A stretch of DNA of 42,289 bases, taken from NCBI GenBank assembly GCA_016188575.1, contig JACPHN010000059.1, forward strand, positions 1-42,289. Direction: 5' to 3'. The translations under genes and the position numbers were made by a program. Source of the DNA: Candidatus Schekmanbacteria bacterium. Lineage in GTDB: Bacteria; CSSED10-310; JACPHN01. Positions 30,121 through 35,971 of this stretch are shown here, in pieces; position 1 is the stretch's first letter; each line of letters opens with the position of its first letter. The notes under the pieces are model-generated. The model was not told the DNA's origin, searched no databases, and saw only the letters and a list, made by a program, of their open reading frames with translations.

Positions 30121-31884
30121 GTGATCGGATGGACCATCTGCCTCCTCGCCGCCGCTTCCGCCGCCGCGCCGCTCTGGATCGTCGACGCCGACCTCTCATC
30201 GCCCCATGACTACCCAAGCGACTCCGACGTCGTCGCGGAGCTCACGGTCCCGGGCGCAACCACCGTGCGCGTCCACTTCGACCGCATCGAGGTGGAGGAA
30301 GGCCGCGACTTCGTCTCCGTGCTCGATGGCGCAGGCAGGGAGATCATGACTGTTACCGGAATGCACCGCGACCTGTGGACGTCAGCATTCGCGACCGACA
30401 CCGTCAAGGTCAGGCTGACTTCCGACGCGGAGGTCAGCGACTTCGGGTACGAAGCCAGAAAGATTCTGGCGACCGGACCGGCGCAACCCCGGTCCCTGCC
30501 GGATATTCCAATCGACGCGGCAGTCGCCTGGGAAAACGGCAAGGTCTACTTTTTTAGCGGCCCGCAATACATTCGCTACGACGTTTCGGAGGATCAGGCC
30601 GACGATGACTATCCCCGCCTGATCGCCGGTAATTGGCCAGGGCTCTGGCCAGGCGGCATCGACGCCGCGGTGAACCTCGGAGACGGCACTGCCCTGTTTT
30701 TCCGGGATGGCGAGCTCGCTCGCTACGACGTTGCCGCGGACCGTGTCGCCGCGGGCTATCCAAAGGCCATTGCGCAGGCGGCGCCTGGCGTCTGGCCCGA
30801 CGGCGTAGACACCGCGTTGCGAGGGACCGACGCCAAGATCTACCTTTTTCACGGCGACGAGTACATCCGCTTCGACGTCGGAGCGTGGAAAGTAGACGCC
30901 GGCTATCCGCGGCCAATCGCGCAGGGTTGGCCAGGGCTCTGGCCGGCGGCGATTGGCGCCGCCACGTCGATGGACGACTCCAGAGCCTATTTCTTTCGCG
31001 GCGCAGAGTATTCCCGATACAACCGAGCAACAGACGTCGTGGACAGCGGCTACCCCCTGCGCGTGAAGTACTACTGGCCCGGCCTTTGGGATGCCACCGA
31101 GGGTGGTTCCCAGGTGTCGGCGCTGCCTCCGGAGATCCGCACCGAGCTCGCGCGGAGACCACCGGCGGCCGAGGTCGCCGCGCGGCGAGCGCGCGTGGCC
31201 AGATCTCTGTCGACTGATGAGGTCGACCTCACGGACAGCTACCCGCGCTTTGTGGACTCGGTGGAAGACATCCTGCACACCTACGGTTGTGGGCTGATCC
31301 GGAGGCCGAACAGTGTCTTTCGCTTTCGGTGCGCCACCGATACGGCGGGTCCTCAGGCACTCGAGCTTCCGGAGATCAACGTCCAGAGCATTGACTGGCG
31401 TGCGGCAAGCTACCACATCGAGCAGGTGAATCAGGGCGACTTCGGGGCAGCGGCACTGACACCGTTGAGCATCCTGGCGGCGGATGACGGCGAGTATTTC
31501 ATCGACGCGATCGGGGCCAATGGCGCGACAGGCGGAATCAGCGCCGGCGCCTGGGCACAGGTCAGCTTCCGCGTTGATGGCGTGAAAAAGAGGATCAGCT
31601 TCGCGCACCTGGCGGATCGTTTTCCGCGATACGTCGTGACCGCCTGGAAGGAAAAGCGGCCATTGCGGACTGGCGTTGCCTTTGGGTTCATCGGGCATAC
31701 AGGCAACCTGTGGATCGGCACGCCCCCTGCGGCAGATGGGCCCTACAGCGGCGATGGCAACTCCCTACCGCGCTCGCACTCGCACGTCTGGTTCATCGGG
31801 GATCCGGCCAACCACATGAAGCTGACACCGTGGGCGCGGCGGTCTCTGGACTGCACGGTAGCGTATCGCTACGGCGGGGGTTAG
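30121..31884 (+). CDS. Exported CUB - hemopexin x4 - M23-like protein
   Basis: A 587-aa protein. GTG 30121 is chosen because AAGGAAGG precedes it and a signal peptide follows (IGWTICLLAAASAAAP); the upstream ATG 30055 gives a basic, non-signal N-terminus. The first domain is CUB-like (SSPHDYPSDSDVV, FDRIEVEEGRDFVSVLDG, SDFGYEARKI). Four hemopexin repeats follow (IDAAVAWENGKVYFFSG; IDAAVNLGDGTALFFRDG; VDTALRGTDAKIYLFHGD; IGAATSMDDSRAYFFRGA), each ending in a PGLW- or PGVW-type motif, so one complete four-bladed propeller. The C-terminal part (about 430-587) resembles M23/LytM peptidases: SFAHLADR, GFIGHTGNLW and RSHSHVWF in the place of the HLHFE motif. The usual first HxxxD is not clear, so activity is uncertain. 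Its stop overlaps that of the convergent UbiX gene. Confidence 0.8.
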   Translation: MIGWTICLLAAASAAAPLWIVDADLSSPHDYPSDSDVVAELTVPGATTVRVHFDRIEVEEGRDFVSVLDGAGREIMTVTGMHRDLWTSAFATDTVKVRLTSDAEVSDFGYEARKILATGPAQPRSLPDIPIDAAVAWENGKVYFFSGPQYIRYDVSEDQADDDYPRLIAGNWPGLWPGGIDAAVNLGDGTALFFRDGELARYDVAADRVAAGYPKAIAQAAPGVWPDGVDTALRGTDAKIYLFHGDEYIRFDVGAWKVDAGYPRPIAQGWPGLWPAAIGAATSMDDSRAYFFRGAEYSRYNRATDVVDSGYPLRVKYYWPGLWDATEGGSQVSALPPEIRTELARRPPAAEVAARRARVARSLSTDEVDLTDSYPRFVDSVEDILHTYGCGLIRRPNSVFRFRCATDTAGPQALELPEINVQSIDWRAASYHIEQVNQGDFGAAALTPLSILAADDGEYFIDAIGANGATGGISAGAWAQVSFRVDGVKKRISFAHLADRFPRYVVTAWKEKRPLRTGVAFGFIGHTGNLWIGTPPAADGPYSGDGNSLPRSHSHVWFIGDPANHMKLTPWARRSLDCTVAYRYGGG

Positions 31885-32468
31885 CCCCAGCGGTGGTAGA
31901 GATCGTTGTCGACGCCCGCAAGGTCGAGAGCGCGACCGACGATGTGTCCGATCATGCTGTCCAGATCGGTTGCTCCGGAGTAGGTGGTCAGCACCGCGGG
32001 CAGGACAATGCCGCCGGCGCGCGCCACCCGCCGCATGTTTTCGATGTGGATCAAGCTGAGCGGCGCTTCGCGCGTGATCAGCACGAGCGGCCGCCGCTCT
32101 TTCAAGCATACGTCCGCGGCGCGCAGCAGCAGGTTGTCCGAGTACCCGCTCGCAATGCCCGCGAGGGTCTTCATGCTGCAGGGCGCCACGATCATGCCGC
32201 GCGTGGGGAAGCTCCCCGAAGCGATCGGTGCGGTGAGGTCATCGGGCGCGAAGTCCCGCGTGGCCAGCCCCGCGATGGCGGCGGCGGGCCGGGCGAGCTC
32301 ATGCTCGGCGACGCGACGCGCCGTCGAGGTCATGACCAGATACGCGGTTACCCCCAACGTGCGCAGGGCTTCGAGAAGCCGCACCCCGATGAGCGTTCCG
32401 GAAGCGCCACTGATCCCAACCACGATCCCTGCCGCGGCGCCCCGAGCGATCGCGCTAGCCGTGGTCAT
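31881..32468 (-). CDS. ubiX: UbiX-type flavin prenyltransferase
   Basis: A 195-aa protein with the FMN-binding GISGASGTLIG, PCSMKTLAGIASGYSDNLLLRAADV and LITREAPLSLIHIENM motifs of UbiX. UbiX joins dimethylallyl (mono)phosphate to FMN and makes the prenylated FMN that UbiD-type decarboxylases need. The start overlaps the end of the AcnX small subunit gene by 14 nt, and the gene is last in the operon that begins with a UbiD homologue, so it most likely supplies the cofactor to that enzyme. Confidence 0.95.
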   Translation of the reverse strand: MTTASAIARGAAAGIVVGISGASGTLIGVRLLEALRTLGVTAYLVMTSTARRVAEHELARPAAAIAGLATRDFAPDDLTAPIASGSFPTRGMIVAPCSMKTLAGIASGYSDNLLLRAADVCLKERRPLVLITREAPLSLIHIENMRRVARAGGIVLPAVLTTYSGATDLDSMIGHIVGRALDLAGVDNDLYHRWG

Positions 32469-32850
32469 CGGTGACGCTTATCGTCCCGGCGGTCGCATCC
32501 ACCTCCACCCGGTCACCGGTCCTCAGCCCCCCGATGTCGATGCCATCCACGCACGGAATGTCCGCCAGGATCGCACCAGTCGCGACGATCGTCTCGACTT
32601 CCGCGGTGACGATCGCGCAGGGAGCTACCCCGTTCTTCTTCAGACCGTAGATGACGTAGGAGCCGACGGTCGAGCCCTTGCCGCACGGAAACACGAGCAC
32701 GGTGCCCGCAACGCTGCGTCCTTCCAGAGGATGACCGACTTCGATCACGACGCCCGTGCGCGCATCCACGCCGCCGTAGAAACCAATCGGCGCCGGCGAG
32801 ACCAGGGCCAGTCCGGAAGCCCGCCCAGGGGATACCGATCGCCCCGTCAT
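32455..32850 (-). CDS. Aconitase X small (swivel) subunit
   Basis: A 131-aa protein with the aconitase X swivel domain: VGHPLEGRSVAGTVLVFPCGKGSTVGSYVIYGL contains the G(R/K)GS-type loop whose Ser is the catalytic base in the family, then IVTAEVETIVATGAILADIPCVDGID. Its ATG overlaps the stop of the large subunit (ATGA, 32847-32850). Two-subunit AcnX proteins are phosphomevalonate 5-phosphate dehydratases in archaea, or cis-3-hydroxy-L-proline dehydratases in some bacteria; the first is favoured here by the UbiD/UbiX genes in the same operon (inference). Confidence 0.92.
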   Translation of the reverse strand: MTGRSVSPGRASGLALVSPAPIGFYGGVDARTGVVIEVGHPLEGRSVAGTVLVFPCGKGSTVGSYVIYGLKKNGVAPCAIVTAEVETIVATGAILADIPCVDGIDIGGLRTGDRVEVDATAGTISVTDDHG

Positions 32851-34040
32851 TGTGGCATTCCCCCGCCGCGCAACAGGTCGTCCAGGCGGCGGAACAAGAC
32901 TCTCTGAGAGCAAAATCCGGGCAGATAGCTCGCCGCTTTTCCCGAGGTTACCGCGGTGGCGTCGACCCCCATTCGCTCGAGTGGCGAAACGACCATACAC
33001 GTATCCGCGACAATGCGACCGCCCGCCGCCTGAATCACTTCGTCCAGCCCCAGTTGCACCGCCTCGTCCTTGGTCGCGCGCGCCGTGCAGATCCACAACG
33101 GCGCCGCGAGCCGGCGCCCGCGCACCTTTTCGGCGATGACGGCAATCTCGGACAGCGACGCATGCGGGCATCCCACCACGATGAGCTGCGCTTCCTCCGT
33201 GCTGCTGAGCGCCTGGTACGTCGCGTCGAGCTCCTCCTGCGGGACGACGATGGCGGGCAGGTCTTCCACGTCGACATCGCCGGCCTCCGGTGTGACGCCC
33301 TCCACGTGAAACAACGCCACCGCTCCGCTTGCCGCCATTGCCGCTCCAAGTGCCTTCAGGTCGTCGTTCCGCGGCACCTCGAGGCCGCGGAAATACGGCA
33401 CGCGATTCTTCACCTTCTTGCCTACGAGATAGCCCAGGGCGCCGAAGTCCGCGTTGTCCGTGACTTTGGCGGCGACCTCGACAACCACGTGCGGTTGCCG
33501 GTTTTCCGAAAGGTGAAGGCCGTGCTTCGGCGTGCACCCACACAGCGCCGCGGCGAGCGCCGAAGGCCCGCCTTCGCGGTTGGTCCGCGCTCCGAGCACC
33601 GAATTGGCGTAGCTCACAGCGGAGCTCTCGGCCCACGCAACGTGCTCGCCGGCGCGCGGAACGTTTCCCGTCAGGTAGGGGGCGCAGGTCGGCGAGGCGC
33701 TGATGCCGAGCGCGCGAAAGGCGGCCATGATGCGCAACTGCTTCTCGGCGAAATCTGCGGGCACGCCCATCTCCCGCCAATCGTGCAGATCCATGCCGGC
33801 AGGGTTCAGGGTCGTCGCCACGCGCACCCGCGCGCCCTGGCTGGCGAGGTCCTCGAGAAACTCGAGCCCGGGATCGCCTAGCGATTTGTACGAGACGCCG
33901 GACACCTGTACCGAGTGGATCGGAACCATCTCCGTCGCGCCAAACACCGTGCCGAGCCGCGCCAGCAAGCGCATCTGCCTCTGCAGCACGCTGCCATGGG
34001 CTCCGCTCATCATCAAATCCTGCTCGGCGGTCAGGCGCAT
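32847..34040 (-). CDS. Aconitase X large (catalytic) subunit
   Basis: A 397-aa protein. It carries the AcnX core SPTCAPYLTGNVPRAGEHVA, WAESSAVSYANSVLGARTNR and CGCTPKHGLHLSENR, and the C-terminal VTSGKAASYLPGFCSQRVLF. Candidate Fe-S ligands are Cys near 119, 290 (VVGCPHASL), 347 (VADTCMV) and 376. The enzyme dehydrates a 3-hydroxy acid. In the archaeal modified mevalonate pathway AcnX converts mevalonate 5-phosphate to trans-anhydromevalonate 5-phosphate, which a UbiD homologue then decarboxylates to isopentenyl phosphate; bacterial homologues act on cis-3-hydroxy-L-proline. It overlaps the HAD phosphatase gene by 10 nt and the small subunit by 4 nt. Nothing in the region points to proline metabolism. 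Confidence 0.93.
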   Translation of the reverse strand: MRLTAEQDLMMSGAHGSVLQRQMRLLARLGTVFGATEMVPIHSVQVSGVSYKSLGDPGLEFLEDLASQGARVRVATTLNPAGMDLHDWREMGVPADFAEKQLRIMAAFRALGISASPTCAPYLTGNVPRAGEHVAWAESSAVSYANSVLGARTNREGGPSALAAALCGCTPKHGLHLSENRQPHVVVEVAAKVTDNADFGALGYLVGKKVKNRVPYFRGLEVPRNDDLKALGAAMAASGAVALFHVEGVTPEAGDVDVEDLPAIVVPQEELDATYQALSSTEEAQLIVVGCPHASLSEIAVIAEKVRGRRLAAPLWICTARATKDEAVQLGLDEVIQAAGGRIVADTCMVVSPLERMGVDATAVTSGKAASYLPGFCSQRVLFRRLDDLLRGGGMPQ

Positions 34041-34690
34041 CTGGCTCTCCGCGACAGATCTGTGGCAAGCTCCTCGAGCGAGTCGGCAATGATATCCGGC
34101 CTGCTCGCGAGGATGTCATCGAGGCGCCCGAAGTCCCAGGATATCGGCGCGTAAACGATTACCGCGAGGCCGCCGCCTGCGTGAGCGTCCTCCACGTCGC
34201 GAGCCGTATCTCCGACATAGTAAAAGCGGCCACGCGCAATCTGGAGCGATGCGGCGAGCTCACGAAGCGCCGCATCCTTGCCGGCGAAGCCGTCGTCAGC
34301 ACTGACGATGCGCCGCAAGAAGCGCGCGAGGCGATGATGCTCCAGCACCGCGCGAGCATATGCCCCGCAGCTATTCGTCACCACGCAAAGCTCATGGTGC
34401 GCGGCGAGCTCCGCCAGCGCCGCTTCGGCAGCCGGTGCCGCGGCCATTTCGGCGGGTGCCGCGGCCATCACTGCTCGCACCTGCGCGGTCAGGCCCTCCC
34501 TTACCTCTGCTCGTCCCACAAGATCGAGCGGGATCAACGCCTCGAGCCACTGCCCGACGTGCGCGACCCTCCGCGCGCGAACCACCTCCGCGGTCAGCGC
34601 GAGACCTACCGAACAAAGCGCCGCCTGCATGACCTCGCCATAACGCTCCGCCGAATCGATGAGCACTCCATCCAAATCGAACGCGATCAT
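34031..34690 (-). CDS. HAD-superfamily phosphatase
   Basis: A 219-aa protein of HAD subfamily IA. Motif I is FDLDGVLIDS, motif II LCVVTNS, motif III Lys in GFAGKDAAL, and motif IV YYVGDTARDVEDA. A helical cap (about 15-85) carries a small Ala-rich repeat (MAAAPAEMAAAPAAEAALAE). It starts 3 nt after the UbiD stop and overlaps AcnX-L by 10 nt, so it is embedded in the operon. It might dephosphorylate a pathway intermediate or product (for example a prenyl phosphate), or clear a damaged metabolite. Only the phosphatase fold is secure. Confidence 0.9.
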   Translation of the reverse strand: MIAFDLDGVLIDSAERYGEVMQAALCSVGLALTAEVVRARRVAHVGQWLEALIPLDLVGRAEVREGLTAQVRAVMAAAPAEMAAAPAAEAALAELAAHHELCVVTNSCGAYARAVLEHHRLARFLRRIVSADDGFAGKDAALRELAASLQIARGRFYYVGDTARDVEDAHAGGGLAVIVYAPISWDFGRLDDILASRPDIIADSLEELATDLSRRARCA

Positions 34691-34693
34691 GGT

Positions 34694-35971
34694 TTACACA
34701 TAGTCGGCCAGGTTGACGGGCATTGGGGGTTGCGCGCGCAGGAAATACTCGCGGGGGCGATCCCACGGAATCGTGAGGTCGAAGCCGACCTTCGTGGTGC
34801 TGTTCGCGGGATGCTCGGCCGACGGGTCGAGCGACGACCCCTTCTCGCCAGGCAACACGATGAGGTCCCGATGCGCCTGAAAACGGGTCGCCATCGCCCA
34901 CTCCAGAGCGAGCGGGTCGTCGATGTCGATGTCTTCGTCTACGATGAACACGTGCTTCATCGAGGCGTGGCCGCGAAACGCCGCTCGAATCGCGCGCCGG
35001 CCGTCGTCGGCATGGGCCTTGCGGATCTTTACCGCACCGTGGAGCCACGAACAGCCACCGGGAGTAATGCGAACGTCCAGGCACGTGCACTCCTTCGCCA
35101 CTTCCCGAAAAATAGTCGGCTCGCGCGGCGTTCCCATCAGCACCTTGTGCTCGAGGTCGCCCGGCAGCAGCGCGTGATACAGCGCACCCGGGCGCGCGAA
35201 CACGCGATCGATGCGAGCCACCGGCTGTTGCCGCACGATGTCGAACGTCTCGGTCAAGTCGAGAAATGGCCCTTCGTCATGCAGCTCGCCAGTCAGCGTG
35301 CAGATCATGACGATCTCGGCCGGTGGCACCAGGTGACCCGCCACCTCGACTACCGGCGATGGCGCCAGCGCGTGCGCAATGGCGAGCTCGCTCTTGCCGA
35401 TCTCCACGGAAACGGCCGCTGCCAGCAACACGGGCAATGGGTTGCCGATGCAAAATGCGAATTCCCGCAACCCTCGCCGAATGAATGCGCTGAAATGGCG
35501 ATCGACGATGCGCAGCGCGAGAAGGTCGGCGCGACACACCATGGCGCGATGAAAGGATGCGTTGATGCCATACTCCGCGTCGCGGGCAATGACGATGCCC
35601 GAGGCCACGAATGGTCCTCCATCCTGCGGGTAGTGCGTGAGGATCGGCAACTTCGTCGCGTCGGGAGCAAGCTCGTGGTAAGCGTGAGCGCTCTCGACCG
35701 GCGGCTCCACCGGGTGCTCGATCGCCTCACCGACCTTCGCCAGCAATGCCGCCTTCTCCACTCCGAGCGCCATGGCGAGCAGATCCCGCGATGCGCACAC
35801 ATTCGAGACAACCGGCATCGAGAAGCCCGTAACGTTCTCGAAAAGCACCGGCCGGCCGCGCAGCGCTCGCGCCACGGTCGAGATTTCGTACACCGTGTCC
35901 ACGGAGCGGCGCACCCGCTGCAGGAGCCCGCGCTCGTCAAGGACATCGACAAACGTGCGAAGAGTCGTCAT
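34694..35971 (-). CDS. UbiD-family prenyl-FMN-dependent decarboxylase
   Basis: A 425-aa protein starting at ATG 35971; the frame stays open to 36280, but that extension overlaps the PKD protein gene and has no family match. The N-terminus TLRTFVDVLDERGLLQRV, the active-site strand GINASFHRAMV (Arg near 142), GELHDEGPFLDLTETFD (the EGPF Glu near 233), and the C-terminal IVDEDIDIDDPLALEWAMATR are all UbiD hallmarks. These enzymes decarboxylate alpha,beta-unsaturated acids with prenylated FMN. It is the first gene of the operon UbiD-HAD-AcnX(L)-AcnX(S)-UbiX. By analogy with archaeal anhydromevalonate phosphate decarboxylase it could yield isopentenyl phosphate; other unsaturated acids are possible. 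Confidence 0.93.
   Translation of the reverse strand: MTTLRTFVDVLDERGLLQRVRRSVDTVYEISTVARALRGRPVLFENVTGFSMPVVSNVCASRDLLAMALGVEKAALLAKVGEAIEHPVEPPVESAHAYHELAPDATKLPILTHYPQDGGPFVASGIVIARDAEYGINASFHRAMVCRADLLALRIVDRHFSAFIRRGLREFAFCIGNPLPVLLAAAVSVEIGKSELAIAHALAPSPVVEVAGHLVPPAEIVMICTLTGELHDEGPFLDLTETFDIVRQQPVARIDRVFARPGALYHALLPGDLEHKVLMGTPREPTIFREVAKECTCLDVRITPGGCSWLHGAVKIRKAHADDGRRAIRAAFRGHASMKHVFIVDEDIDIDDPLALEWAMATRFQAHRDLIVLPGEKGSSLDPSAEHPANSTTKVGFDLTIPWDRPREYFLRAQPPMPVNLADYV

Follow-up and report, generated by a model that had tools for sequence, protein, structure and literature searches.

The window analysed here is a 42,289-nt stretch of contig JACPHN010000059.1, from the genome of Candidatus Schekmanbacteria bacterium (assembly GCA_016188575.1, a 9.2-Mb draft that is 94% complete). 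Its positions 31881-35971 carry five tightly packed minus-strand genes in the order UbiD-HAD-AcnX-large-AcnX-small-UbiX (Table 1), a set that combines a two-subunit aconitase X with a UbiD-type decarboxylase and the enzyme predicted to make its cofactor. The initial annotation had described this cluster, with junctions of -14 to +3 nt, as a possible archaeal-type isoprenoid branch. Both the coordinates and the family profiles bear out the cluster itself; the gene positions given then were kept, except for the start of AcnX-small, which is corrected to 32850. In gene order, the junctions measure +3, -10, -4 (ATGA) and -14 nt, and such overlapping or near-touching genes are probably coupled in translation. 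The two AcnX subunits are encoded separately and in tandem across the ATGA overlap, the arrangement expected of AcnX type IIb. All five products were assigned by Pfam and NCBIfam to their families far above cut-off.

Table 1. Genes of the operon at positions 31881-35971, listed in the direction of reading
Gene product	Coordinates	Strand	Length (aa)	Basis
UbiD	35971-34694	minus		UbiD/UbiD_N/UbiD_C above curated cut-offs
HAD hydrolase, phosphoglycolate-phosphatase-like	34690-34031	minus	219	HAD_2; four motifs
AcnX large subunit, proposed phosphomevalonate dehydratase large subunit	34040-32847	minus	397	AcnX, 515 bits
AcnX small (swivel) subunit	32850-32455	minus	131	AcnX_swivel, 114 bits
UbiX, predicted flavin prenyltransferase (prenylated FMN for UbiD)	32468-31881	minus	195	Flavoprotein/UbiX family

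The operon has the base composition of the host. Its GC content is 0.661 against 0.657 for the genome, and both the GC content at third codon positions (GC3) and the tetranucleotide profile are also host-like, so that there is no sign of a chimeric contig or a contaminant. The upstream neighbour is a PKD-domain gene ending 86 nt before UbiD, the downstream neighbour is a convergent gene, and the flanks are bacterial. Because its composition equals that of the host, the DNA, if transferred, was ameliorated long ago. The 9.2 Mb yielded a single AcnX and a single UbiD, which argues that their adjacency is not due to chance.

Relationships of the AcnX pair, UbiD and UbiX

The 66 relatives obtained in a search with the AcnX large subunit are almost exclusively archaeal and mainly from Thermoplasmata, most of them at 50-62% identity (~60% to archaeal AcnX); the sole Planctomycetota metagenome-assembled genome (MAG) among them has a protein with 62% identity, and none of the 66 comes from Chloroflexota. 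In the maximum-likelihood tree, where bacterial AcnX from plasmids served only as the outgroup, the large subunit pairs with the Planctomycetota protein (98/86) inside the archaeal phosphomevalonate dehydratase (PMDh) clade of 30 sequences (100/100), far from the cis-3-hydroxyproline dehydratases. The analogous tree of UbiD, also among the checks that the initial annotation had named, yields a clade (100/99) with two UbiDs at 61-62% identity, one from an Aenigmatarchaeota MAG, in which it neighbours AcnX, and one from the Planctomycetota MAG. Of 89 alignment columns without variation among 14 related UbiDs, 87 are retained. UbiX (NF004685, 219 bits with a cut-off of 188) groups with the UbiX proteins of the same two MAGs and of two more archaea, and its presence inside the operon is predicted to provide the prenylated FMN (prFMN) required by UbiD.

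The residues of the T. kodakarensis enzyme (TkAcnX) that bind mevalonate 5-phosphate (MVA5P) and the Fe-S cluster (PMC8184944) were used as the reference for the active site. Conserved in the large subunit are Gly48, Val49, Ser50, Asn79, Cys119, Glu138, Ser139, Ser140, Cys291, Cys348, Lys368 and Tyr372, including all three cysteine ligands of the cluster (Cys119, Cys291 and Cys348), and the small subunit retains, as Thr61, the residue aligned with Thr63 of TkAcnX. A single MVA5P contact is altered, from Asn53 to Ser, and the Thermoplasmata and euryarchaeal sequences examined have the same change. The PMDh [4Fe-4S] cluster is associated with a cysteine at each of sites A, 1 and B (PMC10040528); all three are present here, with Val350 opposite the site-C cysteine of type I enzymes. 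We propose on these grounds that the pair is a PMDh of AcnX type IIb.

The order UbiD-AcnX-large-AcnX-small, with or without a following UbiX, is repeated in dozens of archaeal loci. The Aenigmatarchaeota locus (L010) reads mevalonate kinase, UbiD, a chaperone-like protein, an HD hydrolase, AcnX-large, AcnX-small, UbiX, isopentenyl phosphate kinase (IPK) and an FMN_dh protein, which is probably a type-2 isopentenyl diphosphate isomerase (IDI-2). One archaeal-type gene block thus accounts for four of the five operon genes.

The fifth gene encodes a HAD protein with all four HAD motifs and only a generic resemblance to phosphoglycolate phosphatases; no homologue was found in the archaeal clusters examined or on plasmids. 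Other hydrolases occur in two archaeal operons, an HD protein between UbiD and AcnX (L010) and a NUDIX protein after UbiX (L045), which leads us to the speculative guess, by analogy, that such enzymes might provide UbiX with dimethylallyl phosphate.

Mevalonate pathway genes in the genome

The initial annotation had called for a search for HMG-CoA reductase, mevalonate kinase and IPK, and all three are present in the genome, together with HMG-CoA synthase and IDI, completing the gene set expected for an archaeal-type pathway. HMG-CoA reductase has three homologues, on contigs C129, C197 and C52. The C129 protein passes the TIGR00533 cut-off and the C197 copy falls just below it. Directly beside the C129 gene, a fusion of a CrtC/lipocalin protein with a polyprenyl synthetase is encoded (L096, 5779-8130). 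The third homologue, on C52, lies within a protein of 917 aa that carries a C-terminal APH-like kinase domain (L071, 283-3036); it may be a relative of fatty acyl-CoA reductase (FcrA) instead of an HMG-CoA reductase. IDI-2 is encoded on contig C6 (379 bits, cut-off 281).

Contig C235 carries mevalonate kinase, a GHMP-family decarboxylase and IPK as one operon, downstream of which a B12-binding radical SAM protein resembling TIGR04190 is found (L095, 6441-8105). The best NCBIfam family of the decarboxylase is the generic diphosphomevalonate decarboxylase (DMD) model, and its nearest solved structure is the phosphomevalonate decarboxylase (PMD) of A. thermophila, 6n0x. The two decarboxylases can be told apart by a DMD lysine and a PMD histidine (PMC11052028). 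In the C235 protein the lysine is replaced by Ala21 and the histidine is kept as His201, along with the catalytic Asp287 and Lys193; by these signatures it is a predicted PMD. The archaeal-type route needs no GHMP-family decarboxylase, but this genome has one, which makes the organism a hybrid of two pathway types; with PMD placed beside IPK, two routes would lead from MVA5P to isopentenyl phosphate.

The methylerythritol phosphate (MEP) pathway was considered as the isoprenoid source and rejected, as neither DXR nor IspE was found in the 94% complete genome. DXR is also absent from one relative, and six other genomes of the phylum have it. The GHMP kinases detected number just three and are assigned as mevalonate kinase, the decarboxylase and homoserine kinase, hence neither IspE nor phosphomevalonate kinase is among them. 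Another member of the phylum (G007; L069/L134/L135) has a 736-aa fusion of HMG-CoA reductase with mevalonate kinase and a DMD-type decarboxylase with the Lys and Met signature, and DXR was not found in it. Taken together with the present genome, this gene set suggests that the phylum mixes MEP, classical mevalonate and hybrid types.

Proposed route and competing explanations

We propose, with a probability of roughly 0.86, that the operon encodes a lower mevalonate branch of archaeal type and was gained by horizontal transfer. HMG-CoA synthase (C3), the HMG-CoA reductases (C129 and C197) and mevalonate kinase (C235) would supply (R)-mevalonate 5-phosphate, which the two AcnX subunits would dehydrate on a [4Fe-4S] cluster to trans-anhydromevalonate 5-phosphate. 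UbiD, charged with the prFMN made by UbiX, would then decarboxylate this intermediate to isopentenyl phosphate, thus acting as trans-anhydromevalonate phosphate decarboxylase (AMPD); the IPK of C235 would convert the product to isopentenyl diphosphate, the unit from which all isoprenoids are built, and IDI-2 would isomerize it. In parallel, PMD would make the same isopentenyl phosphate with ATP. The ATP-saving, oxygen-labile Fe-S/prFMN route may suit growth at low oxygen; an advantage under anaerobic conditions has been assumed for the archaeal route (PMC11052028). The transferred archaeal-type branch envisaged by the initial annotation thus finds good support in trees, active-site residues, synteny and genome content. 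Of the end products named at that time, isopentenyl phosphate is retained as an intermediate and isopentenol is dropped; given the C235 kinase, isopentenyl diphosphate is the most likely end product of the branch.

Several points weigh against this assignment. The HMG-CoA synthase on C3 has its best match in TIGR01835 at 332 bits, under the cut-off of 360, and mevalonate kinase reaches 151 bits in its best NCBIfam match, just under 163. The AMPD function of UbiD would follow from synteny and trees, and we infer every reaction, as well as the flux, from gene content, clades, residues and synteny. The absences of genes are provisional in a draft that is 94% complete. On paper PMD makes the AcnX/UbiD branch redundant, and either of the two could have drifted.

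The best known role of AcnX in bacteria is that of cis-3-hydroxy-L-proline dehydratase, and the only NCBIfam AcnX equivalog matched by the large subunit is this enzyme, at 297 bits of a 700-bit cut-off. A tight grouping with these proteins, which the initial annotation had named as grounds for abandoning its proposal, was not observed: forcing it makes the tree 99 log units worse (p-AU 8e-9, approximately unbiased test), and the scores against PDB structures are 367 bits for TkAcnX vs 232 for the hydroxyproline enzyme of A. tumefaciens. The large subunit also has the site-1 cysteine missing from type I sequences and, as read from alignments, lacks their site-C cysteine and the hydroxyproline contacts Trp35, Thr72 and Asp203; no hydroxyproline genes were recognized among the identified proteins of the window. 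The known dehydratase shares the AcnX fold and family, yet it forms a separate clade with other cluster cysteines and substrate residues, and needs no UbiD. On tree, AU test and residues this function is rejected, and we regard it as very improbable. The nearest relatives being mostly archaeal, and AcnX occurring in none of the seven other genomes of the phylum examined, an archaeal contaminant or a chimeric contig within a bacterial bin might also be suspected. It finds no support in composition, however, as GC, GC3 and tetranucleotides match the host and the flanks are bacterial, while the operon genes of two measured relatives have a GC content of 0.52-0.58 against 0.66 here; moreover, the Planctomycetota MAG has sister genes, with UbiD on a 16-kb bacterial contig. 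Contamination is therefore extremely improbable.

The initial annotation had also offered a new dehydration-decarboxylation pathway; as considered here, its substrate would be other than mevalonate phosphate and HAD would dephosphorylate the product. The embedded HAD, with no counterpart in the archaeal clusters examined, and the second gene set for isopentenyl phosphate in the genome are compatible with such a pathway, but the AcnX clade and substrate contacts are those of archaeal PMDh, UbiD keeps nearly all columns invariant among its relatives, and mevalonate kinase and IPK are at hand, so we consider it quite improbable. A weightier concern, though still an unlikely outcome, is that the enzymes are those proposed and the branch serves as a minor backup or has decayed to one, with the flux carried by PMD. 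The single operon formed by PMD, mevalonate kinase and IPK, and the intact catalytic Asp, Lys and histidine of PMD, fit this scenario; against it stand the intact AcnX/UbiD operon, its conserved key residues and its fully host-adapted composition. Extending the proposed archaeal-type branch further, the cell may possess two complete non-homologous routes, the ATP-dependent PMD and the ATP-free PMDh/AMPD, between which oxygen or energy might decide, with the co-translated HAD as a new part of the archaeal-type module, for example a phosphohydrolase that trims isopentenyl phosphate or provides UbiX with dimethylallyl phosphate; this composite proposal is doubtful and we put it forward only tentatively.

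Comparison with known pathways and distribution in bacteria

The archaeal modified mevalonate pathway (Aeropyrum pernix PMDh/AMPD; Hayakawa 2018) has been presented as exclusive to archaea (PMC10040528). The genome studied here shares with it the two-subunit AcnX type IIb, UbiD and UbiX, the Fe-S and substrate residues, mevalonate kinase, IPK and IDI-2. It differs in the bacterial host, the HAD gene inside the operon, the location of the kinases on another contig, the bacterial MvaS-type HMG-CoA synthase and the additional presence of PMD. The mevalonate kinase-PMD-IPK operon of C235 in turn resembles the haloarchaea/Chloroflexi-type pathway with PMD and IPK (Dellas 2013; PMC3857490), from which the genome is distinguished by the archaeal dehydratase/decarboxylase branch alongside. 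Hybrid pathway sets have also been reported in Asgard archaea (PMC11052028). An uncultured archaeon in which a GHMP decarboxylase 41% identical to that of C235 is clustered with UbiX, UbiD, AcnX and IPK (L062, 834-7200) is, by its gene content, predicted to be another double-route genome.

PMC13001223, citing Kanno et al. 2024, places the archaeal pathway in Ca. Promineifilum breve (Chloroflexota). That organism is a bacterium with PMDh and AMPD, as proposed for ours, and presumably belongs to another phylum. Both of its key enzymes are reportedly active. With this earlier case the pathway is not unprecedented in bacteria, and the novelty implied by the initial annotation narrows accordingly: the complete set does occur in a bacterium, and what is new is another bacterial lineage, the double route, the embedded HAD gene and the Planctomycetota relative. 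The anhydromevalonate phosphate route, once described as archaea-specific and then published for one bacterial case, now appears to reach further into bacteria. With the PMD route kept and no MEP pathway seen, the organism lends itself to the question of which variant of the lower mevalonate pathway is used in a cell, and for what reason; its high-GC PMDh/AMPD enzymes could also be of use in isoprenoid engineering.

Among 392 Planctomycetota genomes, a close AcnX (62%) is present only in the MAG DeMMO2_28 (G008; loci L133, L002, L166, L167). It has sister UbiD, AcnX and UbiX genes, IDI-2 and an operon of archaeal-type HMG-CoA synthase, thiolase and an OB-domain protein, and would share with the present genome a module co-inherited from one archaeal gene lineage. 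A GHMP kinase was looked for in this MAG and not found, which leaves the pathway seen there incomplete. A further three Planctomycetota genomes encode AcnX large and small subunits with ~48-50% identity and all PMDh residues, including Asn53 (L152, 8523-10132; L153, 6951-8667; L154, 2001-3589); no UbiD lies near them within the stretch read. Their AcnX branches outside the archaeal clade and is possibly a second bacterial PMDh lineage.

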